DNA from: a virus
Virus record (IMG/VR): IMGVR_UViG_3300033143_002316
Coordinates: 1-26,810 of that record
Length of the DNA stretch: 26,810 nucleotides
Direction: 5' to 3' (one strand)
Shown: positions 5,527 through 26,810 of the stretch, piece by piece
Layout: each line of letters starts with the position of its first letter
Numbering within the stretch: the first letter of the stretch is position 1
The notes under the pieces: model-generated
The model's input: only the letters and a program-made list of their open reading frames with translations
What the model was told of the DNA's origin: nothing
The model's database searches: none
Translations under genes and position numbers: made by a program

Positions 5527-6432
5527 ATGGCAAGTTCAACCACTTATTACACAGATGAATCCGTAAGGGAAGACCTTTTGGACCTCATCACTAATATCAC
5601 GCCCACAGAGACGCAGTTGATGTCTGGTCTTCAGACGACTTCTGCATCATCGGTGCGGCATGAGTGGCTTGAAGATACCCTCGAAGCAGCCAAATTCAAC
5701 TTCTATGTTGAAGGTGCAGACGCTTCCTACGCCGTTACGGACCCCACAAGGGACATAAACTACTGTCAGATTATCAGACAGGGTTTCTCCGTTTCGGATA
5801 CGCAGGAAAGTGTTGACCACGCTGCTTTTGCTGACAGAAAAGCGTATGAAGCTGCAAAGGCGATGAAGGTTTGGAAGAATGATGCTGAGTATTCCATTCT
5901 TTTGAACTCGCTGAACTGCGGTTCTGCGTCTGTTGGTAGAACGATGAAGGGCATCTACAACTGGATTGTGGCTACTAACGTTACGAACCAGTCCGGCACA
6001 TCACTCTCGGAAAGCAACCTGCTTGATTATCTCGCTGAAGTTTGGGCGTATGGCGGGGAGATTGACGAAGTGTATGTAGGCGGAACACTCAAGAGACGTA
6101 TTGACGGCTTCACAGCTAACTCGACTAAGAATGTAAATTCTAATGACAGAAGGCTCGTTAATGCGGTCGATGTTTATGAATCGTCCTTTGCCCCATTGGT
6201 GAAGGTGTTCTTGCACCGTTATGTTGATACTGCGGCACAGGGTATTGATTCGACGACGCACGATATCATTGGTATCGATAGTGACAAGTATGCCGTTTCT
6301 TATCTCCGTAAACCCTACATGAGGGATTTATCGAAGATAGGCGACGCTGAAAGAGCTGAAATCGTTGGTGAAATCACCCTCGAAGACAGGGCAGGCGGAA
6401 AGTGTGCCTTCCTGGGTCATCAGCACTTCTAG
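5527..6432 (+). CDS. Major capsid protein, SU10/DUF5309 type
   Basis: Main shell protein, expected HK97 fold. The N-terminus (YYTDESVREDLLDLITNITP, residues 7-26) followed by TETQLMSGL and HEWLEDTLE is the pattern I know from the DUF5309 or SU10-like capsid family. Later parts DEVYVGGTLKRRIDGF and AVDVYESSFAPLVKVFLHRY (middle) and a C-terminal GEITLEDRAGGKCAF also fit. At 301 residues it is in the normal range (300-350). AAAGGAAA before ATG 5527 gives a good ribosome site. No protease gene or cleavable N-terminal delta region is visible; the separate scaffold gene takes that role. High confidence from both sequence pattern and order (portal, scaffold, capsid). Confidence 0.9.
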   Translation: MASSTTYYTDESVREDLLDLITNITPTETQLMSGLQTTSASSVRHEWLEDTLEAAKFNFYVEGADASYAVTDPTRDINYCQIIRQGFSVSDTQESVDHAAFADRKAYEAAKAMKVWKNDAEYSILLNSLNCGSASVGRTMKGIYNWIVATNVTNQSGTSLSESNLLDYLAEVWAYGGEIDEVYVGGTLKRRIDGFTANSTKNVNSNDRRLVNAVDVYESSFAPLVKVFLHRYVDTAAQGIDSTTHDIIGIDSDKYAVSYLRKPYMRDLSKIGDAERAEIVGEITLEDRAGGKCAFLGHQHF

Positions 6433-6806: not shown

Positions 6807-9089
6807 ATGAAGTTAGCTTTAGCTATAATTGCGAAGAATGAAGTTGACCAGTTGAACCGTATCATTAGAGACTATGGTAAATACTTCGACGAAATAGCTA
6901 TTGCCTATGATGACCCCATTTGTGAGCAGGTTAAGGGGGATAAGGTCAGTCTCTATAAGTACGAGTGGTGTGATGACTTCGCCCACAAGAGGAACTTCCT
7001 TGCTGACAAGATAAAGAGTGACTTCTATCTTCGCCTCGATACGGACGATGAGATTATAAACCCAGAACTTCTTCGTGAAAGTTTCACAGCCTCGGCAAAG
7101 CAGGGGTTCACTGAAATCTTCATGATGTATTATTACGCTTTTGATAAGAATGGACAGTGTAATTCAAGGCATTGGCGTGAGACCATCATTAAGAATGACG
7201 GGAACCTCTACTGGAATAAGGCTATCCATGAGAACCTTCTCCCTCTAGTTCCCAGGAAAAGAATCTCAGGCAAGGAGACGAAGGTATGGTTGGTCCACAA
7301 GTGTTCCCACGAAGAGCATCTCAAATCAGCGGAGAGGAATATCAAACTCCTCCTGAAGGAGTACGAGGAGACGAAGGAGAAGCCCGATCCCAGGACAGTT
7401 GGATACATAGCTCGTATGTACCTTGGTATGGGGAAGTGGAAGGAAGCAATACCGTTCTTTGAACAGTTCTTAAGGACTAGTGGTTGGGGTGACGACAGAT
7501 ATTTTGCTTGGGTTCAACTTTGTGATTGCTACACATTTTTGAATACGTTAGAACCCGCCCTTAACTGTTGTGTGGAAGCCGTTCTCTTACAACCTACCTA
7601 CCCAGATGCTTACTTTAGATTCCTTTCTGTTTACTATGAGATGAAGGAATACGGGAAAGCTATCGAGTGGGGAAGGCTGGGGTTTGCCAAGAAGTCTCCA
7701 GACCATATGTTGAATATGGACGACACTTCTTACACATGGAGACCTACGGCTCAACTGGGTCTTTGTTATATGCAGGTTGGTAAGCTCAAGGAAGGGGTCA
7801 AACTTCTTCAAAGAGCTAACCGACTTTCTCCGAAAGAAAAGAGCATTACAGATGCCCTGCACTTCTTCAAAGACTTAGATAATGAAAACGATATGGTGCA
7901 GTCATATCTGAAGTTGATGAATTTTGTAAAGAAGGATTTGAGGAGCTTTTCTCATCTTGTGAATAGTATTCCAAGAGGTATATCCCACGATGAGAGGTTG
8001 CTTGTAGCAAAGAATGTAATTCTACCAGGGAGGGTCTGGGGTGATAAGTCCATTGTATTTTATTGTGGTCCAGCTTGGGAAGATTGGGTGGATAGTTCAG
8101 TCGTCGGAGGCATTGGTGGGTCAGAAGAGGCTACCATCTATCTATCCAGAGAGTTCACAAAACGTGGATATGACGTCACCATATACAACCAATGTGGAGA
8201 ACTGGCTGGAGAATACAGGGGAGTCAAGTATAAGAACTTCTATGACTTTAATCCCAAAGACAAGTTTAACATCGTCATCTCCTGGCGACATAACATTTTT
8301 GAGAAACGGAATATCAAAGCACGAAAGAAACTGATTTGGCTCCATGACATTCCTGGGAAGAAACAGTTCCTCATGGATGACTCAGAGACATACGACAATG
8401 TTATCGTTCTTTCTCAATTCCACAAAAGCGTGTTAAAGGGCGTCCCAGAAGAGAAGATACTCGTCTCCCGCAACGGTCTTAACATGGCTGACTTTGATAA
8501 AATCAATGAGGAGCGTAATCCTCATAAGATGATATGGGCTTCTAGTTACGATAGGGGCTTACAGCCGTTCCTAAAGTTCATCTGGCCTCAAATAAGAAAA
8601 GAAGTCCCAGATGCAGAACTAGGTATCTTCTACGGTTGGAATACCTACGATGCTATGGTTCTTGAGGGTCGGCGGGATCAGCGTTGGAAGGATGAGATGG
8701 TCCAACTGATGCAACAGCCAGGTATTATCGAACACGGCAGAGTAGGACAGAAGAAACTAGCCAAGGAATATTCTAAGGCTGGTATCTGGGCTTACCCCAC
8801 GAATTTTGAAGAAATTTCCTGCATAGGTGCTATGAGAGCTCAGGTCTGCGGTGCTGTACCCGTGGTTAATAATTACGCCGCCCTGAAAGAGACGGTCAAG
8901 TGGGGTCTTAAGAATCCAGGAGATGTCCACAAGGAAGATACTTATGAACACTATGGTAAAGCCCTTATCTCCCTTCTACTGGACCCAGTCAAACAACAGA
9001 GAATCCGTGAAGAGATGGTAGTTAAGGCTAAGGATACATTCTCCTGGACGGGGGTGGCTGACGCATGGGAAGAGAAACTCTTTTCGTAG
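6807..9089 (+). CDS. Three-part glycosyltransferase: GT2, TPR, GT4
   Basis: A 760-residue protein with two sugar-transfer domains. Residues 1-110 are a GT-A (GT2) domain beginning LALAIIAKNE with the metal-binding DTDDE at 78-82. Residues about 185-375 are helical TPR-like repeats (for example YIARMYLGMGKWKEAIPFFE and AQLGLCYMQVGKLKEGVKLL). Residues about 413-760 are a GT-B (GT4) domain with GGIGGSEEA near 435 and SRNGL near 555. In the late GT4 motif FEEISCIGAMRAQ, E669 is kept, but the second Glu expected eight residues on is R677. The C-terminal half may therefore be altered or inactive. Ribosome site AGAGAGG is at 6791-6797. TPR between GTs is known in protein or lipid glycosylation enzymes; the acceptor here is unknown. 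Confidence 0.85.
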   Translation: MKLALAIIAKNEVDQLNRIIRDYGKYFDEIAIAYDDPICEQVKGDKVSLYKYEWCDDFAHKRNFLADKIKSDFYLRLDTDDEIINPELLRESFTASAKQGFTEIFMMYYYAFDKNGQCNSRHWRETIIKNDGNLYWNKAIHENLLPLVPRKRISGKETKVWLVHKCSHEEHLKSAERNIKLLLKEYEETKEKPDPRTVGYIARMYLGMGKWKEAIPFFEQFLRTSGWGDDRYFAWVQLCDCYTFLNTLEPALNCCVEAVLLQPTYPDAYFRFLSVYYEMKEYGKAIEWGRLGFAKKSPDHMLNMDDTSYTWRPTAQLGLCYMQVGKLKEGVKLLQRANRLSPKEKSITDALHFFKDLDNENDMVQSYLKLMNFVKKDLRSFSHLVNSIPRGISHDERLLVAKNVILPGRVWGDKSIVFYCGPAWEDWVDSSVVGGIGGSEEATIYLSREFTKRGYDVTIYNQCGELAGEYRGVKYKNFYDFNPKDKFNIVISWRHNIFEKRNIKARKKLIWLHDIPGKKQFLMDDSETYDNVIVLSQFHKSVLKGVPEEKILVSRNGLNMADFDKINEERNPHKMIWASSYDRGLQPFLKFIWPQIRKEVPDAELGIFYGWNTYDAMVLEGRRDQRWKDEMVQLMQQPGIIEHGRVGQKKLAKEYSKAGIWAYPTNFEEISCIGAMRAQVCGAVPVVNNYAALKETVKWGLKNPGDVHKEDTYEHYGKALISLLLDPVKQQRIREEMVVKAKDTFSWTGVADAWEEKLFS

Positions 9090-10909: not shown

Positions 10910-11637
10910 TCATACCTTGCTGGATTACAGATAAGTTATTACTAGACTTAACTTATCGTTGTGTGTCTTCCGTGAGGGAAGCATCTGATGTTGAATTAGT
11001 CTTAGTCAATAACGGGTCGAAACTTGGGGCAGGGTATCTTAAGGAAGAAGCGGACGTCTATATAGAGAACCCAAAGAATCTTGGTTACGTCAGGGCTATA
11101 AACGACGGCATAAAGTATAGCAGTGGACAGTACATCGTAGCAGGTAATAATGATTACTTCCTCGAAGAGGGATGGGAAGAGGCTCTCGTAGATGTCCTAG
11201 AGACCGTCCCTGATGCAGGTATAGCTTGCCCCCATACAAAGGGAAGTCCAACATTCAATGTCCCGTGGGTCGAGGAAGGAACTCCTGGTGGCTGGTGGAT
11301 GATAAAACGTAGTCTTCAGAAGAGACTCGGTTTATTAGACGAACAGTTTTTCAACGTATTTGCAGATTTTGACTACCTTTGGAGAATGTGGGATAAGACA
11401 GGGAAGAAAGTCTACGCTACTCCTAAGACGACGGCTCAACATTTCGGCGAAGGAACTCTCACTAAATTCCCCCAAAGAGAACATGAACATAACCAAGGAC
11501 AGTGGTTGTTATTAAACAAGTGGAAAGACTTTCCGCATTTTTTGAAATACACAGGGTTCTCAATTACTGAAGACGAAATAGGGGAGTGGTTAGACATCCA
11601 TGCTAAATACAGTCAAAGCACTGACTATACTTCTTGA
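10864..11637 (+). CDS. GT2 family glycosyltransferase (paralogue)
   Basis: GT-A glycosyltransferase, second copy of the type at 9771. Core elements are SVIIPCWITDKLLLDLTYRC, DVELVLVNNGS, NLGYVRAINDGIKYSSGQY and the NND site at about residues 95-97 (VAGNNDYFLEEGW). The later GGWWMIKRSLQKRLGLLDEQ, FADFDYLWRMW and TTAQHFGEGTL fit acceptor-side segments. The listed ATG 10864 lies well inside the methyltransferase gene (46-nt overlap) and has no clear ribosome site; TTG 10891 would start at MVKTSVIIPC, closer to family norms, so the true N-terminus is open. The end overlaps the LicD-like gene by 38 nt. Its likely role is adding a sugar to the same glycan as its neighbours. Confidence 0.82.
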   Translation: MQQQWFGYPLVKTSVIIPCWITDKLLLDLTYRCVSSVREASDVELVLVNNGSKLGAGYLKEEADVYIENPKNLGYVRAINDGIKYSSGQYIVAGNNDYFLEEGWEEALVDVLETVPDAGIACPHTKGSPTFNVPWVEEGTPGGWWMIKRSLQKRLGLLDEQFFNVFADFDYLWRMWDKTGKKVYATPKTTAQHFGEGTLTKFPQREHEHNQGQWLLLNKWKDFPHFLKYTGFSITEDEIGEWLDIHAKYSQSTDYTS

Positions 11638-12385
11638 TTTGAAGAAAGTCCTAGATGCTGTCGGAGTTATGTTCTGGTTGGACGGCGGGACTCTTCTGGG
11701 GGCTTACCGTGAGAACGGATTCATGGAGTCAGATTTTGACATAGATGTAGGTATCTTGGGTGAGGACGATCAACACCTACTCAGCATCAGGGAAGGATTG
11801 AGCGAGCTTGGGTTCGGTAGCTTTCATCTAAAAGAACATCCCTGTGGAAACAAACAACTTTCGTGGGTGAAGGATGGTATACCTGGTGATATTTTTTGTT
11901 ATTATAAACGTGATTCTGTTCGTTTTAGGGTTATGTTTGATATTACGCCAAATAGAACCGTAAGGTTCATTCCGTGTGTGTATCCTTCGTATATCTTTGA
12001 CAAGTTCGGAACAATAGATTTTATGGACTATGGGGTAGAGTTCTTGATGCCTTCACCCGTCGAAGAGTACCTTGAAAGACAGTATGGGGATTGGAAGACG
12101 GACAAGTCTCCAGGTGAGTTCCACTGGCAGACAGACTACAAGTCCATGGATAGGGGCTTTATTATATCCTCGGAGCCCGCGGGCAGGAGAAGGTGGTTTC
12201 TTACGGAAGAACTCCATGCCAGGCAGAAAGACGGGGAATTTTTCATTCCACTCATCAAGGAAGGCTACAAGCTCTACCCGATAGTCGTAGACCAGAATAA
12301 TAATGTCTTAGATGGAAACAAACGGGTATCAGCCTACAGACACTTAGGCGTCCCAATGGTGGAGGGTTATGCAACCATTATATAA
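11600..12385 (+). CDS. LicD-like nucleotidyltransferase with ParB-like C-terminus
   Basis: The N-terminal part (about 1-170) matches the LicD/fukutin-like nucleotidyltransferase fold. FWLDGGTLLGAYRENGF (25-41) is followed by SDFDIDVGI with Asp at 45, 47 and 49, the expected metal-binding set. Such proteins transfer phosphocholine or phospho-sugar groups to glycans. The last 58 residues (204-261) differ: FFIPLIKEGYKLYPIVVDQN, LDGNKRVSAYRHLG and VPMVEGYATI resemble the ParB/Srx-type domain with its DGxxR loop (238-242). Whether it binds nucleotide or only a partner is unknown. Start ATG 11600 overlaps the GT2 gene. The LicD call is good; the ParB-like call is moderate. No choline pathway gene is seen nearby. 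Confidence 0.76.
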   Translation: MLNTVKALTILLDLKKVLDAVGVMFWLDGGTLLGAYRENGFMESDFDIDVGILGEDDQHLLSIREGLSELGFGSFHLKEHPCGNKQLSWVKDGIPGDIFCYYKRDSVRFRVMFDITPNRTVRFIPCVYPSYIFDKFGTIDFMDYGVEFLMPSPVEEYLERQYGDWKTDKSPGEFHWQTDYKSMDRGFIISSEPAGRRRWFLTEELHARQKDGEFFIPLIKEGYKLYPIVVDQNNNVLDGNKRVSAYRHLGVPMVEGYATII

Positions 12386-20320: not shown

Positions 20321-20452
20321 ATGAAGCATAAACATTTAAAAAGTAAGTTCCCATTCTATTGTCCTTACTGCAAGAAGGTGGTTCGTGCAAAGTGTAACCG
20401 AACAATCAACGAGAATGATAACGACGATTCGCATTTATCCGTCTACAAATAA
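20321..20452 (+). CDS. Short zinc-knuckle ORF, probably truncated
   Basis: 43 residues from ATG 20321 (directly after TAA 20318-20320) to TAA 20450-20452. It reads KFPFYCPYCKKVVRAKCNRT, so it has a CPYC knuckle (C14, C17) and a third Cys (C25), but no fourth ligand or second CxxC. The last 15 codons overlap, on the opposite strand, the end of the HNH gene. Small phage zinc-ribbon proteins normally have two knuckles, so the second half may have been lost when the HNH gene arrived. A short ORF with plausible start context and moderate support. Confidence 0.5.
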   Translation: MKHKHLKSKFPFYCPYCKKVVRAKCNRTINENDNDDSHLSVYK

Positions 20453-20861
20453 GACAACGTCTTCCGACCCTTGTTTTACCCCAAAATTCATTTGGTTTAC
20501 TTGGAAGAAGATGCCCGTGAAGGCAATGTGTTTTTCTTGAATTGATGGACGGGGGACTTGAGCCACGAAGAGCATTACTTTTTTGAGTACCAAGTTTTAG
20601 ATGTTTCGGATTACAACAAGCACGATTGTTACAAACTACATGGTCAAGAACAAGCCCACGCTTCCCCTGTGGAAGGGGTTCTATAAGCCAAGCAAAAAGA
20701 AGTCTATGGACCAGCTCTGTCTTTCCTCGGAAATTAAAGACACCATATCCTCTGTTCTTGAGTTTTGCGGCAGTCCAATTCCAACAACCAGTTTTTGGGT
20801 CGAAGGATATTTTGCTTAGAATACGCTTCTGTTCATTCTCAGTAAGGGATACTTTTAGCAT
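20406..20861 (-). CDS. HNH homing-type endonuclease
   Basis: 151 residues on the - strand, the only convincing gene so oriented. The pattern GCWNWTAAKLKNRGYGVF (25-42), VHRLLFAW, LDHVVCNNRACCNPKHLKLG (72-91) is the HNH_3 homing endonuclease fold: D73/H74, N84 and H87 would form the active site and the Cys residues bind zinc. A second zinc finger THCLHGHLL plus RRCLICRR (112-141) is common C-terminally. Free-standing HNH genes act as selfish elements that cut DNA lacking them. It sits between the small tail genes and the second glycan island. It has its own extended -10 promoter and seemingly no leader. Composition is not obviously different from neighbours. Confidence 0.9.
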   Translation of the reverse strand: MLKVSLTENEQKRILSKISFDPKTGCWNWTAAKLKNRGYGVFNFRGKTELVHRLLFAWLIEPLPQGKRGLVLDHVVCNNRACCNPKHLKLGTQKSNALRGSSPPSINSRKTHCLHGHLLPSKPNEFWGKTRVGRRCLICRRINANRRYHSR

Positions 20862-20890: not shown

Positions 20891-22327
20891 ATGCCAGACC
20901 TTTCTTTTATTATTCCAGCCCGCAATGAAAAATATCTGGAAAAAACAATTCATAATATTTTAGAGAATATTCGTGGCGACTCGGAAATACTTGTTGTTCT
21001 TGACGGCTATTTACCAGACCCTAAAATAGAGACAAATACCGATAGAGTTACGTTCTTTCATTTTCCTGAATCCATAGGTCAGAGAGCCGCCATAAATTAT
21101 GCTGTTAAACAATCAAAGGCAAAATTCATTTGCAAACTTGACGCTCATTCTGCTATAGACGAAGGTTTCGATGTTAAAATGATGGCTGAGTGTCAACCAG
21201 ACTGGACCATGGTCGGACGTATGTACAATCTTGACGTCTCGACCTGGAAGCCCAAACTCCACAAGAGAACGGACTATATGTATATCAGTAGTCCACGGGT
21301 TGAGAAGCCTTTTCGGTCTACCTACTACGGTTCTAAACAACCCCGTAATAATATAATGATAGACGATATTATGGACTGTATGGGGCCCTGTTTCTATATG
21401 CACAAAGACCGTTTCTTAGAGTTGGGTGGTATGGACGAGGGACACGGTGGATGGGGGCAGATGGGCATCGAGGTCGCCTGCAAGGCTTGGCTGTCCGGCG
21501 GTTCAATGAAAGTAAATAAGAAGACTTGGTTCGCCCACTACTTCAGGGGTGGAAAGACAGGAGAAGGCTTTCCGTATAAACTCCGTGGTAGTGACCAAGA
21601 GAAAGCCCGTAAGTATTCAAGAGATTTGTGGCTCAATGATAAGTGGCCTTTAGCCAAACGTAAGTTCCAGTGGATGATTGATAAGTTCGACCCGCCTGAT
21701 TGGACAGAGAATGATTTAACCATTGTCTATTATACGGCGAACCTCGTAGAGAAAGGTATTGAGTATTCAGTCTTAAGGTCTTTAAGGAAGCACGGCTACC
21801 CCATAGTCAGTGTCTCTCAAAAACCTATGGACTTAGGCAAGAACATAGTAGTTCCTAAAGAGAGGTCGTTAGAGAACATCTACAGACAGGTCTTGATAGG
21901 GGCGAAATTAGCCACTACTAAATACGTTGCTCTTTGTGAAGACGATTGTTTATACACTCCTAAGCATTTCAGGTTCCGCCCTAAGAAGCCTTTTGGGTAC
22001 AATTTAAACAGATGGCTCCTCCACCTCAACGATAATATCTTCACCTACAGACGAGGATCTATTCTTAGCCAGTGTATCGCCGACAGGGAAGTCTTAATTA
22101 AGTGCCTAGAGGCGGGTGACAGGAACAAGGAGATGGGACTCAAAGATAATTACGAGTATGAGAACTTTGAGACTGAGGAACCTAATCTGGTCATCTGTCA
22201 CAAAAAGAACATAACAGGCAGAAGGTTCTGGGGGAAGGACGCCGAACCCAAAAAGGAACTAACGAACTGGGGAACGTCACAGTATTGGGTTGATAAATTC
22301 GAGAGGCGTCGTGCAAAAACTTCGTAG
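20891..22327 (+). CDS. Two-domain glycosyltransferase, GT2/GT27-like N-domain
   Basis: A 478-residue protein. The N-terminal GT-A domain (1-260) begins LSFIIPARNEKYLEKTI, has the metal site DAH (84-86) in ICKLDAHSAIDEGFD, and a later acceptor segment ELGGMDEGHGGWGQMGIE with CKAWLSGG and TWFAHYFRGG. The DxH and GGMDE...WG pattern recalls GT2 and GT27 enzymes such as polypeptide GalNAc transferases, but target proteins cannot be read. From about 275 a second module begins (LTIVYYTANLVEKGIEYSVL) with ALCEDDCLY near 350 and EPNLVICHKKN, probably another GT-A-like domain. GGGAG at 20882-20886 is the ribosome site. It opens the second glycan island and overlaps the next gene's start. Confidence 0.85.
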   Translation: MPDLSFIIPARNEKYLEKTIHNILENIRGDSEILVVLDGYLPDPKIETNTDRVTFFHFPESIGQRAAINYAVKQSKAKFICKLDAHSAIDEGFDVKMMAECQPDWTMVGRMYNLDVSTWKPKLHKRTDYMYISSPRVEKPFRSTYYGSKQPRNNIMIDDIMDCMGPCFYMHKDRFLELGGMDEGHGGWGQMGIEVACKAWLSGGSMKVNKKTWFAHYFRGGKTGEGFPYKLRGSDQEKARKYSRDLWLNDKWPLAKRKFQWMIDKFDPPDWTENDLTIVYYTANLVEKGIEYSVLRSLRKHGYPIVSVSQKPMDLGKNIVVPKERSLENIYRQVLIGAKLATTKYVALCEDDCLYTPKHFRFRPKKPFGYNLNRWLLHLNDNIFTYRRGSILSQCIADREVLIKCLEAGDRNKEMGLKDNYEYENFETEEPNLVICHKKNITGRRFWGKDAEPKKELTNWGTSQYWVDKFERRRAKTS

Positions 22328-23360
22328 TCAAGAACCCTGTATACACGGTCATCCCTACAGCATAGAGGGTATCTTGAGGGATTTGGAGTTCTTCTGGGAC
22401 TACAGGAAGATGAACCGACTTCCGCTCTTTAAGCATTGTTTAGAGTTCTTTCAGGACATCCACGATGGAAAGATAACTGAGCACACGACTGACGCCGACT
22501 TGAAGAAACATCCCTACCTATTGTATTTACTTAGAGGACGTTCTCCTGAAAGTAAGTGTTTAGTTAATATGCGGGACGGGATTAGACTCTATAACAATAT
22601 CAAAGATTTCGGGATGCGTGAACCTCTCGAAGCGTGGAGAGACGAAAAGAGGGGTAAACTAAACATCCACAGAGGACTGAGACGGCTTGCGGTGCTGAAG
22701 GCTTTGGGTCGCCGCAACATCCCTATAAGAGTCTTTAGGGACAGGCGTACCCTTGAACTAATGCAGGGTGATCCCCACGGAGACACTGTTCCTGACGATT
22801 CAATCCACGGGTTAGCCGTCAAACAGTTCGCCAAAGAATCCTTTAGGGGAACGGATAAGTTCTGGATACATAACTACACACCTATTTACGATAAGTATTT
22901 ATCAGACAAGAGAGACAAGTATAAAAAGATTTTAGAGATAGGCGTATCCCACGGCGGGTCTTTACTGTTGTGGCACGACGTCTTCCCGAAGGCCCACATA
23001 TACGGAGTCGATAAAGACATCAGTAGGGCGAGGCTTGTTAAAGGTTTGGACAGGGTCACACTTTTAAAGGGTGTTCAGGGTGATAAGGACTTCTTTAGGA
23101 ACGAGGTCGTCCAGTACGGACTGTTTGATTTAATCGTTGATGACTGTTCCCACAACCCTAAGCATCAGAAAGAGACATTAGAGATTTTATGGAACAGTGT
23201 CAATGATGGCGGGTATTATGTCATTGAAGACCTCTTCTGGCGAGGCACGGAAGACAAGACAGCCCAGAAGAAACTCTTTGAGATGGTCGATTCTATTAAC
23301 GCCCTTGAGGTCGAGTCGGTCAGTTTCTACTACAACCTCTGTCTAATCAAAAGACGATGA
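22311..23360 (+). CDS. ParB-like domain fused to sugar methyltransferase
   Basis: A 349-residue protein with two parts. Residues about 85-145 resemble a ParB-type nuclease-like domain: MRDGIRLYNNIKDFGMREPL, then KLNIHRGLRRLAVLKALG in place of the DGxxR loop, and IPIRVFRD. The C-terminal part (about 180-349) is a class I methyltransferase of the MycE/CmcI (macrocin or demethylmacrocin O-methyltransferase) kind: KILEIGVSHGGSLLLW (206-221), YGVDKD (231-236), DLIVDDCSHNPKHQKETLEI and GGYYVIEDL. The DDCSH motif is a typical metal-binding site for sugar O-methylation. I chose GTG 22311 behind GAGAGG (22301-22306); TTG 22290 would add seven residues. It overlaps both neighbours (ATGA with the next GT). 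Confidence 0.8.
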   Translation: MQKLRSQEPCIHGHPYSIEGILRDLEFFWDYRKMNRLPLFKHCLEFFQDIHDGKITEHTTDADLKKHPYLLYLLRGRSPESKCLVNMRDGIRLYNNIKDFGMREPLEAWRDEKRGKLNIHRGLRRLAVLKALGRRNIPIRVFRDRRTLELMQGDPHGDTVPDDSIHGLAVKQFAKESFRGTDKFWIHNYTPIYDKYLSDKRDKYKKILEIGVSHGGSLLLWHDVFPKAHIYGVDKDISRARLVKGLDRVTLLKGVQGDKDFFRNEVVQYGLFDLIVDDCSHNPKHQKETLEILWNSVNDGGYYVIEDLFWRGTEDKTAQKKLFEMVDSINALEVESVSFYYNLCLIKRR

Positions 23361-24079
23361 AGAAAGTCTCAATAATAATTCCTGTCCTAAACAGCTCGGA
23401 AGTCCTTAGAAGACAGCTTATACATTTTAAGAACATTGGTATACCTGATGACGTTGAGATAATTATTGTAGATGATGGTTCTGATCCCGCCCTCCAAGTT
23501 GACGGGGTCAGGCTTATTAAGACAAACGACAGACGTCCGTGGACATGGGCTCTTGCTCGTAACAAGGGAGCTAAGGCCGCCCTTGGCGAGTACCTCCTAA
23601 TGTACGACGTCGACCACATTATCACCAGAGAGTTACTAGATGCCTGCCGTGCCTTTACTGGAGACAAGATACAGTTTATTCGAGAGTTCGCCGTCATAGA
23701 TGAGAACGGGGTCTTTACACAAGATATAACGACTTTAGTTGCCTACGGCTTTCCTCTGAGTAGGCTTGAACGCAGAGGACTGAAACTCGGACCACTGCCC
23801 AATAACTTTCTGATGCGTAAAGACATCTTCTGGGAGTTGGGCGGGTACTTAGAAGACAGGATTGGCAAGCCCTACCCACAGGGTGAGGATAGACTCTTTA
23901 AGAAAGCGTGGCACGATTACGAGGCTTCCGGCAAAGGTTTAGTTCACCACGAAAGACCTACGATTTATATGTTCCCTAATGGGTACTACTGCGGAGACGT
24001 TGACTATAATCCTTTTGGTCTGTTTCATACTTTAAGCAGAGCCACCAGAAGGAACTCTAAATACAAGAGGACTAAATGA
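23357..24079 (+). CDS. GT2 family glycosyltransferase
   Basis: Single-domain 240-residue GT-A enzyme. Visible elements are VSIIIPVLNSSEVLRRQL (4-21), EIIIVDDGSD (34-43), WALARNKGAKAALGEYLLMY (64-83), the DVD metal site (84-86) directly followed by His, PLPNNFLMRKDIFWELGGY and EDRLFKKAW, where the Glu-Asp is the likely catalytic base region. ATG 23357 overlaps the methyltransferase stop (ATGA), so the two are coupled. It is more distant from the tandem GT2 pair in the first island than those are from each other. Substrate unknown. Confidence 0.87.
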   Translation: MKKVSIIIPVLNSSEVLRRQLIHFKNIGIPDDVEIIIVDDGSDPALQVDGVRLIKTNDRRPWTWALARNKGAKAALGEYLLMYDVDHIITRELLDACRAFTGDKIQFIREFAVIDENGVFTQDITTLVAYGFPLSRLERRGLKLGPLPNNFLMRKDIFWELGGYLEDRIGKPYPQGEDRLFKKAWHDYEASGKGLVHHERPTIYMFPNGYYCGDVDYNPFGLFHTLSRATRRNSKYKRTK

Positions 24080-24259: not shown

Positions 24260-24685
24260 ATGGCTGAATTACTTGTACGAGCAAAAAATCACTGGATGGA
24301 TGAGTTGACACAAAAAGAAGTTGATGCTTTGCCTGATGGGAATAAAGAGACTTATACGGCCCGTTCTCAAAAGGGTGACATTATCGTTGTCAAACCTGAC
24401 GGCTGGATATGGGGAAAGTCTGAACGTCTGCCAAACTATGTTGTTGTTAAGGTTCCTGGAATGAAGTATGAAGATGCCAAAAAATATGAAGAGTCTTTAT
24501 TGGACACTACTGGAGAAGAACCAATTACGCTCCGCAAGAGAAAGCATAATATTCTAGGAACAGACGTTGATGCAGCTATCACAGCAAAGACGGATACTGT
24601 TGAACTTACTAAATCAGTAACAGAGAGTAAAATAGTCGTAAAGACTGGTGATTCAAAAGAGGTTATTCAACCTAAGGTTATTTAA
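24260..24685 (+). CDS. Hypothetical protein before large fibre gene
   Basis: A 141-residue protein. The N-terminal half is beta-rich and contains KGDIIVVKPDGWIWGKSERL followed by NYVVVKVPGMKYEDA, a layout I have seen in small phage proteins that sit beside fibre genes. The C-terminal third is Thr/Val/Lys-rich and may be disordered. The gene starts with ATG 24260 behind a GAGGAA site (24250-24255 region) and its stop overlaps the fibre start by 1 nt (TAATG). It may be a fibre adaptor or chaperone. No family is named. Confidence 0.66.
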   Translation: MAELLVRAKNHWMDELTQKEVDALPDGNKETYTARSQKGDIIVVKPDGWIWGKSERLPNYVVVKVPGMKYEDAKKYEESLLDTTGEEPITLRKRKHNILGTDVDAAITAKTDTVELTKSVTESKIVVKTGDSKEVIQPKVI

Positions 24686-26810
24686 TGGCACAGTTTCTAT
24701 ATAAAACAGTCAAACCCGCCGATGGTGATTACACTACTCTTGAAGCGTGTATGGCAGATAACGAACAGGACTTAACTGGCGATGGTTGGTTTGATATTGA
24801 AATTGATGGAACATGGTCGAGTCCAGATACAACAGTTGTCAGCATAGACACCTATGTAGCAACCGTTAATGATTATATTAACATCTACACAACTTCTGCC
24901 GCTCGTCACGATGGAACAAGCATCGGTGGGGGTTATACATTAGACATAGAAAGTGACCCAGGAGTAACTGGAACCGTAACAATTACCTCGGTTGATTATG
25001 TTATCATAACGGGATTACTTCTTGTCCCCTTTAACGGTAATAATCAGATTAGTCGTGGGTTTAAGTTCTATAACACGGAAAATACGATTATAGATAAATG
25101 TATCATCTCAAAGGGTTCTTCTAACAATTCAACCTCCTACGGTATGTATAGCGAATCAAATCTACATGCTTCAATAGTGACGATTAAAAATTGCATCATA
25201 GAGAAAATTGCTACGGATGGGGGCACAGCACACGGAATGTGGATTGCTGGTAATGCGGCGAAAACATTCAATATATACAATACAACAATCTATGGATGCG
25301 GGAATTCAGGGATTGAGGTTGATGGAACCCAAACAGTGCTTTGTAAAAACGTAATATCCCATTCAAACGGAACAGATTTTAATGGGTCGTTTGATGGTGC
25401 CTCTGACTATAACTTCTCCAAAGACGACACCGCACCTGAAGCGGCGGGTAATTCTATTTGGGGTGATACAGATGGACTAACCCCAGACTTTGTTGCTGTG
25501 GGAGCAGGTTCAGAGGATTTCCACCTTGAAGCAACATCAGACGCTATCGGAGAAGGTGTTGATTTATCTGGTACTTTTACTGATGATATTGATGGTGATA
25601 CACGTTCAGCGTGGGATATTGGCGCAGATGAATACGTTGTAGCTGGATCAGCGACACCTTCAGCCAGTGTGTCAGCATCTCCGTCGGCCTCAGTTTCGGC
25701 TACCCCCTCCGCCACACCTTCAGCAACTCCTTCGGCTACTCCATCGTCTTCGCCGTCTGCATCGGCCTCGCCATCGGCGTCAGAATCAGCGACACCTTCT
25801 GCGTCTGTCTCGGCTACACCAAGTGCTTCTCCATCGTCAAGTCCATCTGGTGCGGACCCATCCTCATCTCCCTCAGCGAGCCCTAGTGCTACTCCGTCTG
25901 CTTCGCCCTCACCCAGTGCGACTCCTAGCGCAACGCCTTCGGCTAGTCCATCTGCTACGCCGAGTTCCAGCCCAAGTGCAAGTTCTTCACCTTCGGCAAC
26001 ACCTTCGGCAAGTGTATCGGCTACACCGAGCTCTTCACCGTCTCCGAGTGCTACACCTAGTGCCACGCCTTCGGCTTCGGTAAGTGCAACTCCCTCAGCG
26101 AGTGTTTCGGCAACTCCCTCTGCAACGCCGTCAGCAAGTGTTTCAGCGACACCGAGTGCCACACCGAGTGCTTCACCTTCACCCAGTGCTACTCCTTCGT
26201 CTTCACCTTCAGGGACGGCTTCAGCTACTCCCTCATCTTCACCGAGTGCAAGTCCCTCACCGAGTGCTTCAGTCTCAGCCACACCTTCGGCTTCGGTAAG
26301 TGCAACTCCAAGTGCTAGTGTGTCGGCAACACCTTCTGCAACGCCAAGTGGTACGGCAGCTCCAGATAATACCTACCTTGTTTATGATAATGACAGATTG
26401 GAAGTCTATGCGGATGGAGTAATAACAGCAGCCTTTGATGAAGGGGTGTCTAAGTTCGGTGATATCGCAACAAATTACGCAAACTTTGAAACAGACGGGT
26501 TACTTACATTTGAAGGCACAGCAAGAACGACTGTGGATATGTACATCACAGCCAGTGGTATTAAAGCCCCTGGCGGGAACCCTGCCGCTTTTGTTGAATA
26601 TGGTCTTTGCGGAGCATGGGAGTTTGACGACCAAGCCGTAGAAGGAAACCAAGAATCTATAGCAGGGACTTTAAAACTCCCAAGTCAGATGGATAAGTCA
26701 GTAGCACCCGTATTTAAAATAGGTTGGAGTGCTAACGGTGTCAGTCCTGGGATTTGTCAGTGGCAGTTAGAATACTTATATGTCTCTCCGAATGAAGCAA
26801 CAAACGGTGC
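24685..26810 (+). CDS. Beta-helix fibre with long Ser/Ala/Thr/Pro linker, partial
   Basis: The largest single frame at the right side of the window, open from ATG 24685 to the edge (708 codons, no stop). It is partial. Residues 1-320 look like a right-handed parallel beta-helix: FLYKTVKPADGDYTTLEACM at the start, repeated strand-turn units (TIIDKCIISKGSSNNSTSYG; IYNTTIYGCGNSGIEVDGTQ) and a closing SAWDIGADEYV, common at the end of such domains. Residues about 322-558 are a Ser-Ala-Thr-Pro repeat linker. From 560 a globular beta-rich domain (TYLVYDNDRLEVYADGVITA) begins, with more beyond the edge. Probably a receptor-binding fibre or spike. Beta-helix call is fair; linker is certain. Confidence 0.8.
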   Translation, partial: MAQFLYKTVKPADGDYTTLEACMADNEQDLTGDGWFDIEIDGTWSSPDTTVVSIDTYVATVNDYINIYTTSAARHDGTSIGGGYTLDIESDPGVTGTVTITSVDYVIITGLLLVPFNGNNQISRGFKFYNTENTIIDKCIISKGSSNNSTSYGMYSESNLHASIVTIKNCIIEKIATDGGTAHGMWIAGNAAKTFNIYNTTIYGCGNSGIEVDGTQTVLCKNVISHSNGTDFNGSFDGASDYNFSKDDTAPEAAGNSIWGDTDGLTPDFVAVGAGSEDFHLEATSDAIGEGVDLSGTFTDDIDGDTRSAWDIGADEYVVAGSATPSASVSASPSASVSATPSATPSATPSATPSSSPSASASPSASESATPSASVSATPSASPSSSPSGADPSSSPSASPSATPSASPSPSATPSATPSASPSATPSSSPSASSSPSATPSASVSATPSSSPSPSATPSATPSASVSATPSASVSATPSATPSASVSATPSATPSASPSPSATPSSSPSGTASATPSSSPSASPSPSASVSATPSASVSATPSASVSATPSATPSGTAAPDNTYLVYDNDRLEVYADGVITAAFDEGVSKFGDIATNYANFETDGLLTFEGTARTTVDMYITASGIKAPGGNPAAFVEYGLCGAWEFDDQAVEGNQESIAGTLKLPSQMDKSVAPVFKIGWSANGVSPGICQWQLEYLYVSPNEATNG
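25651..26353 (+). repeat. Low-complexity SATPSAS-coding repeat
   Basis: About 700 nt in which nearly every codon is for Ser, Ala, Thr, Pro or Val, built from units SATP, SASV, SASP, SSSP and SPSP in the fibre frame. Codons vary (tcg, agt, tca, tct for Ser), so it is a protein repeat kept while the DNA drifts, not a recent exact tandem copy. It forces long false ORFs in the antisense strand and in the +1 frame. The repeat is Ser/Thr/Pro-rich and lacks charged residues apart from two interruptions (ESATP and GADP). Confidence 0.92.

Follow-up and report, generated by a model that had tools for sequence, protein, structure and literature searches.

Fusions of ParB-fold domains to SAM methyltransferases, including phage proteins with Methyltransf_23 partners, were published in 2025 and read as probable DNA methyltransferases (PMC12704722). 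Such fusions bound ATP, and an R-to-A substitution in the GxxR motif abolished binding; of 28 ParB-fold proteins purified for the published assay, only 11 bound an NTP of any kind, and the choice of nucleotide was, according to the same survey, not predictable from sequence (PMC12704722). The phage protein described here, ParB-MT, resembles these fusions in its predicted ParB/Srx fold joined to a SAM methyltransferase, in the GxxR of its P motif and in its occurrence in a phage. It differs in a helical insert before the core, in partners that across its relatives also include Methyltransf_24, GT2 and LicD, and in a setting of glycan islands rather than DNA methylation. The fusions scanned here also fall below the PF02195 cut-off of that survey, which would therefore miss these copies.

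Three further groups of proteins bear comparison. WbdD, from the synthesis of the E. coli O9a O-antigen (PMC3482155), likewise joins a methyltransferase to a nucleotide-using domain; its kinase, however, has a eukaryote-like protein kinase fold and a coiled coil, whereas the present domain is predicted to be ParB/Srx-like and a kinase activity is only hypothesised. SerK and SbnI share the fold, and the motif DG-x-HR is common to SbnI (DGVHR) and to the related MT-ParB proteins described below, but SerK and SbnI carry no methyltransferase fusion and ParB-MT has neither the Asp nor the His of the motif. The CTP-binding domains of KorB, Noc and ParB are the nearest PDB profile matches, and NHGARR of KorB resembles HRGLRR of ParB-MT; unlike them, ParB-MT is fused to a sugar-type methyltransferase, and no DNA-binding HTH was found after its ParB fold, where Pfam returned methyltransferase families only. 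As for the setting, glycans on virion proteins are known from mycobacteriophages (Freeman et al. 2023, cited in PMC12619734); as reported in that citing source, they lie on capsid and tail-tube C-termini, whereas a Ser/Pro-repeat protein is the candidate acceptor in the present case and ParB-fold proteins are among the enzymes. An earlier note on this DNA had called the fusion the best candidate for an undescribed system. That is too strong for the fusion as a kind, because PMC12704722 already holds ParB-fold/SAM-methyltransferase fusions, ATP-binding ones among them. The glycan-island family looks new: in the open-access papers searched no description was found of this family, of its Methyltransf_24, GT2 and LicD partners, or of the link to Ser/Pro-repeat proteins.

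The window, meaning the whole 26,810-base stretch that was analysed, covers a virus record entirely, and its source is an uncultured tailed phage that encodes a portal protein (phrog_1216) and a major head protein (phrog_1328). The ParB-MT reading frame overlaps the stop codon of the GT2-GT2' gene by 17 nt (Table 1). Residues are numbered here from the TTG at 22290, the numbers of the earlier note being 7 lower.

Table 1. Coordinates of the fusion proteins, their domains and neighbouring genes in the window.
Feature	Position	Strand	Basis or remark
LicD-ParB fusion	11600..12385	+	PF04991 27.6 bits, cut-off 22.6
C-terminal ParB/Srx-like module of LicD, about aa 210-261	12227..12382	+	HMM, hhalign, shuffles, phrog_620
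GT2-GT2', two glycosyltransferase-2-like halves (aa 1-270, 271-478)	20891..22327	+	PF00535 3.7e-17
ParB-MT protein	start 22311 (GTG) or 22290 (TTG), end 23360	+	GAGAGG just upstream of GTG
Predicted ParB/Srx-fold domain, aa 18-152	22341..22745	+	HMM matches, model, fold search, hhalign
C-motif-like loop G108-M-R-E-P112	22611..22625	+	alignments
P-motif-like segment I126-H-R-G-L-R-R132 (GxxR)	22665..22685	+	alignments
Methyltransf_24 / CmcI-MycE-like SAM methyltransferase domain, aa 186-316	22845..23237	+	PF13578, PF04989, phrog_21658
GT2 after ParB-MT	23357..24079	+	PF00535 2.5e-14
Ser/Pro-repeat protein (SATPSASPS repeats)	24685..26808	+	runs past record end

The methyltransferase domain carries the motifs LEIGVSHGG, VDDCSH and VIED. 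It exceeds the PF13578 cut-off (26.8 against 26.3 bits, aa 215-314), shows CmcI-like similarity (PF04989, 1.9e-4, aa 214-331) and is matched by the methyltransferase family phrog_21658 at 1.3e-21; in the related locus L097, PF13578 reaches 34.3 bits. A MycE/CmcI-like methyltransferase after the ParB part, as the earlier note had it, is thus borne out. The ParB part is arranged as a first strand, a helical insert (about aa 36-86), the C-motif helix, two strands, a helix and a strand. Its core shows a non-synonymous difference of 0.26 per site against saturated synonymous sites, and is under purifying selection, as the GT2 parts are.

The ParB-like segment had been placed at residues 85-145; the evidence upholds it and extends the domain to about aa 18-152. 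Among the PHROGs families, the ParB family phrog_6218 matches ParB-MT at 0.0071 (aa 94-152) and phrog_17439 at 0.01, the ParB family phrog_620 matches the LicD protein at 0.0034, and L099, an orthologous fusion with the same order of parts, matches the ParB family phrog_4715 at 2.8e-6. A generic ParB HMM was built from 42 non-redundant phage ParB-like modules, on contigs fetched by a DGN[HK]R DNA pattern, leaving out every glycan-island sequence. It scores ParB-MT at E 0.0068 and the LicD protein at E 3.9e-7, with 0.12 as the best value among all reversed decoys and no other open reading frame of the window doing better than E about 80; none of 5,000 shuffles of either protein reaches the real score. 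When the profile of the window family was compared with PDB profiles, chains of Noc, KorB, ParB and PadC made up nine of the 12 best matches (E 0.03 to 1.8). A two-sequence profile of either window module found no ParB in the PDB, and the de novo TIM barrels that topped the first profile search were repeat artefacts. For PF02195 (cut-off 26.3 bits) no match was listed for ParB-MT, and every fusion scanned stayed below the gathering cut-off, the best (L099) with 15.5 bits.

The predicted structure is compatible with this assignment. A model of aa 8-185 (m0cf929c0d7fe), built from a 32-row alignment, has a mean pLDDT of 78, with ten-residue block means of 84-95 in model residues 41-150, its first strand lying near aa 25-35 with the helical insert between that strand and the core; a single-sequence model of the whole protein reached a pLDDT of 37.6. 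The fold comparison covered the ParB-MT module. Its best PDB matches by Foldseek are KorB (6e-4), Noc, Srx (9e-3), ParB and SbnI (1.1e-2, rmsd of 2.0), with SerK lower, and the first 30 rows returned by VIA all belong to the ParB/Srx/SerK family (Z 4.5-6.7, a modest maximum); over the whole model the best PDB match has a low TM-score of 0.35. Since the 32-row alignment held ParB-like rows, the fold result shows compatibility and not independent proof. Judged by profiles and model together, the ParB part of the window protein is a predicted member of the ParB/sulfiredoxin fold superfamily.

The second fusion in the window, LicD-ParB, is real (HMM E-value above) and recurs in a second phage, L001, with 55% identity; the P motif of its module reads D238-G-N-K-R242. 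That both proteins carry the same module, as had been proposed, holds in part. Both modules are ParB/Srx-like, but their direct comparison is not significant, so that their kinship rests on the MT-ParB proteins as an intermediate. By hhalign, the window-family profile matches the MT-ParB profile at 97.3% (E 2.2e-11, 89 columns including the helical insert), and the LicD module matches MT-ParB at 94.9% (E 4.5e-8). These profile alignments indicate a relationship between the two window modules by way of the MT-ParB family.

Both modules sit on glycan enzymes in glycan islands, as the earlier note had seen, and many more such fusions were found in phages. In the window the GT2-GT2'-ParB-MT chain is divided into two overlapping reading frames. 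The same chain is one polypeptide in L004, L099 and L103 (fused reading frames of 834-920 aa), and L004 and L005 hold GT2, GT2', ParB and MT in a single polypeptide of 798-841 aa; L095 begins in the same way as these and then meets the contig end. The window GT2-GT2' is 62% identical to the fused polypeptides of L004, L005 and L095, and in L004 and L005, as in the window, a GT2 gene comes after the fused gene. In L006 GT2, MT, GT2' and MT-ParB are separate genes. At least four further module architectures occur in phage glycan islands (GT2-GT2'-ParB-MT, MT-ParB, GT2'-MT-ParB and GT2-MT-ParB). MT-ParB is represented by 21 distinct proteins (less than 95% identity to one another), four of which have an extra N-terminal half: GT2' in L120 and L123, GT2 in L171 and L174.

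The association with glycan genes was seen from both directions. With the GT2' half as the sole probe, and thus without ParB, 51 phage loci were fetched. ParB-like modules joined to glycan enzymes are present in 17 of them and in none of the 27 control loci (Fisher test, run with 24 controls, 5e-4); some of the 51 are near-duplicate or re-fetched loci (L100/L101 equal L005/L004, L102 equals L095, L141 equals L006), which leaves fewer independent cases. The MT-ParB probe alone fetched 26 loci, with GT2 in all 26 and GT2' in 24, whereas GT2/GT2' occurs in 0 of 53 generic ParB loci (Fisher 2e-21). Every full-length member seen of the MT-ParB methyltransferase family is joined to ParB, which partly follows from the use of a fusion as probe; the 51-locus GT2' set was fetched without one. 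Metagenomic viral contigs, many of which are fragments and some near-duplicates, are the source of every fusion other than those of the window. The probe alignment A2, which held hand-made variant sequences, served only to fetch L004-L006 and not as evidence.

No bacterial genome yielded a relative in exact-peptide scans that used the window protein or its close alignment as probe, and a scan of viral contigs with the single window protein likewise found none. By tblastn, neither the module nor MT-ParB found a fusion in cultured phages and plasmids, and the 88-aa L006 module gave weak ParB-like matches only; at the MaryV and Mel-JY01 phage loci the methyltransferase is present and the ParB module undetectable. 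A DNA pattern scan returned 31 loci, with the module only in L007 and L034 (known contigs) and in L023/L033, the remaining loci serving as chance controls. L023 (4827-5555, minus strand) and L033 (2117-2845, plus strand) encode a standalone 243-aa ParB-like protein whose C motif is of the same style as in the fusions (IKQNGMTHP) and which has a GNQR, the closest non-fused relative seen.

The conserved residues argue for a working ligand pocket. In the MT-ParB family (23 unique proteins) the only invariant ParB residues are G275, P279, D290, G291, H293 and R294 (L122 numbering), which are those of the C-motif loop and the P motif, while the rest of the module is divergent; the invariance was assessed on MT-ParB sequences, the window's own family having few. 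The Gly and Pro of the C motif are conserved in alignments A4, A11 and A12 and in all 23 MT-ParB proteins, and both G-xx-P and GxxR (G129-R132 in ParB-MT) are kept in all families aligned. The P motif varies otherwise: HRG[LWG]RR in the ParB-MT family, DGxHR in MT-ParB and DGNKR in LicD-ParB. The window motif, HRGLRR, has R128 and R131 where all MT-ParB proteins have Asp and His, and its chemistry may therefore differ from theirs.

We favour the reading in which ParB-MT is a SAM-dependent sugar O-methyltransferase with an N-terminal nucleotide-binding accessory module of ParB/Srx fold, and give this prediction about an even chance of being right. G-M-x-x-P and G-x-x-R would serve the ParB-fold domain in binding its ligand, either an NTP or an activated sugar by its nucleotide part, and the domain would in this way position the substrate for the methyltransferase or gate that enzyme. 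GT2, GT2', LicD and the methyltransferases would together build and methylate a glycan, whose acceptor would most likely be the Ser/Pro-repeat virion-type protein encoded alongside. A nucleotide-binding accessory is preferred to a SerK-like kinase or to pure docking in view of the invariant MT-ParB pocket residues and of the ATP binding of the published fusions. If correct, this reading widens the range of uses known for the ParB nucleotide-binding fold to include glycan synthesis. Of the shared role suggested by the earlier note, nucleotide use or docking, the first fits the invariant MT-ParB residues.

That the ParB-fold domain is instead a small-molecule or sugar kinase of SerK/SbnI type, phosphorylating the glycan end before it is methylated in the manner of WbdD, seems rather unlikely. 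In its favour, the structural matches include the free serine kinase SerK as well as SbnI, both of this fold, D-G-x-H-R is present in 23 of 23 MT-ParB proteins as in SbnI, and WbdD shows that a kinase and a methyltransferase acting on a glycan can be joined (PMC3482155). The Asp and His of this motif, however, are both present in MT-ParB, whereas LicD-ParB has the Asp and the window family has Arg in place of both; the alignment also shows no conserved acid at the position of the SerK/SbnI catalytic Glu (SerK E30, at the end of the first strand), in a region too variable for that position to be placed firmly.

A role in docking or assembly, with the domain keeping the glycan enzymes together after losing nucleotide binding, is still less probable. 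The components are found fused, split or separate (L004, the window and L006, respectively), so that physical coupling seems to matter, and the P motif of the window protein is altered. The invariant MT-ParB residues nonetheless form the nucleotide pocket and not a surface, and the retention of GxxR and G-xx-P in all families likewise speaks against docking.

It is very improbable that the methyltransferase modifies DNA, with the ParB-like part as a DNA-linked domain: the survey does group the phage Methyltransf_23 fusions with predicted DNA methyltransferases (PMC12704722), and weak matches to the DNA methyltransferase family phrog_498 are confined to the ParB part, but the methyltransferase domains match the small-molecule families PF13578, PF04989 and PF13489, and each of the 26 MT-ParB loci is a GT2 island. 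The accessory-module reading offers a specific alternative for the phage Methyltransf_23-ParB proteins as well. Chance likeness of a short segment to ParB, to which the unmet PF02195 cut-off and the non-significant direct match between the window modules might point, is barely credible against the 42-module HMM, the L099 match to phrog_4715, hhalign, the PDB profile matches and the shuffles.

The candidate acceptor is encoded close to the enzymes. Reading frames with (SPSX)n repeats, defined by at least six tandem period-4 S/T-P units, are found in 19 of the 51 GT2' loci and in 20 of the 26 MT-ParB loci, but in none of the corresponding 27 and 53 controls (Fisher 1e-9 and 1e-16, respectively); pooled, the counts are 39 of 77 against 0 of 80, with some contigs shared between the two glycan sets. 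A looser composition rule, tried earlier and then tightened, had given 34 of 51 and 23 of 26 against 1 of 27 and 6 of 53. The rule was formed once the repeats of the window and L006 had been seen; independent tests therefore come from the remaining loci and the controls, and not from these two. All 52 Ser/Pro-repeat reading frames share the strand of the glycan genes; their median distance from these is 43.5 nt, and 40 of the frames are within 500 nt. A concanavalin-A-like lectin domain is present in three of the eight repeat proteins scanned, and the lectin-bearing ones match phage proteins that include a virion structural protein and a baseplate wedge subunit. From this genomic association, the Ser/Pro-repeat protein is plausibly the glycosylation acceptor of a virion O-glycosylation pathway, which provides a concrete candidate and opens to direct test, in these lineages, the way in which phages glycosylate their own virions and the reason for it. 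More tentatively, and with the balance somewhat against it, many uncultured tailed phages may carry out mucin-type O-glycosylation of (SPSX)n on virion lectin-like adhesins by GT2/GT2', capped through ParB-fold-driven phosphorylation or gated methylation. The Ser/Pro-repeat protein of L006 lies at 1969-2652, and many more are found among L096-L174.

Several features of the surrounding genomes were also observed. The major head proteins of L004 (3-836, phrog_267) and the window (5527-6432, phrog_1328), whose glycan cassettes are related, differ in family, which suggests that the cassette moves between phage lineages. HNH-type endonuclease-like genes lie just upstream of GT2 in the window (20406-20861, minus strand), L004 (1728-2255, minus strand) and L095 (2663-3379, plus strand), on the strand opposite GT2 in two of these three related phages; the gene is possibly a homing element. 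L005 (4640-4672) is without the last part of the methyltransferase domain found in L004 (4640-4801), the gene being otherwise near-identical, which reflects either an assembly junction or a natural truncation. Positions 6807-9089 of the window encode a 760-aa protein with a GT2-like start, TPR repeats and a GT1-like end, which is conserved in L001 and L002 and adjoins the head protein gene.
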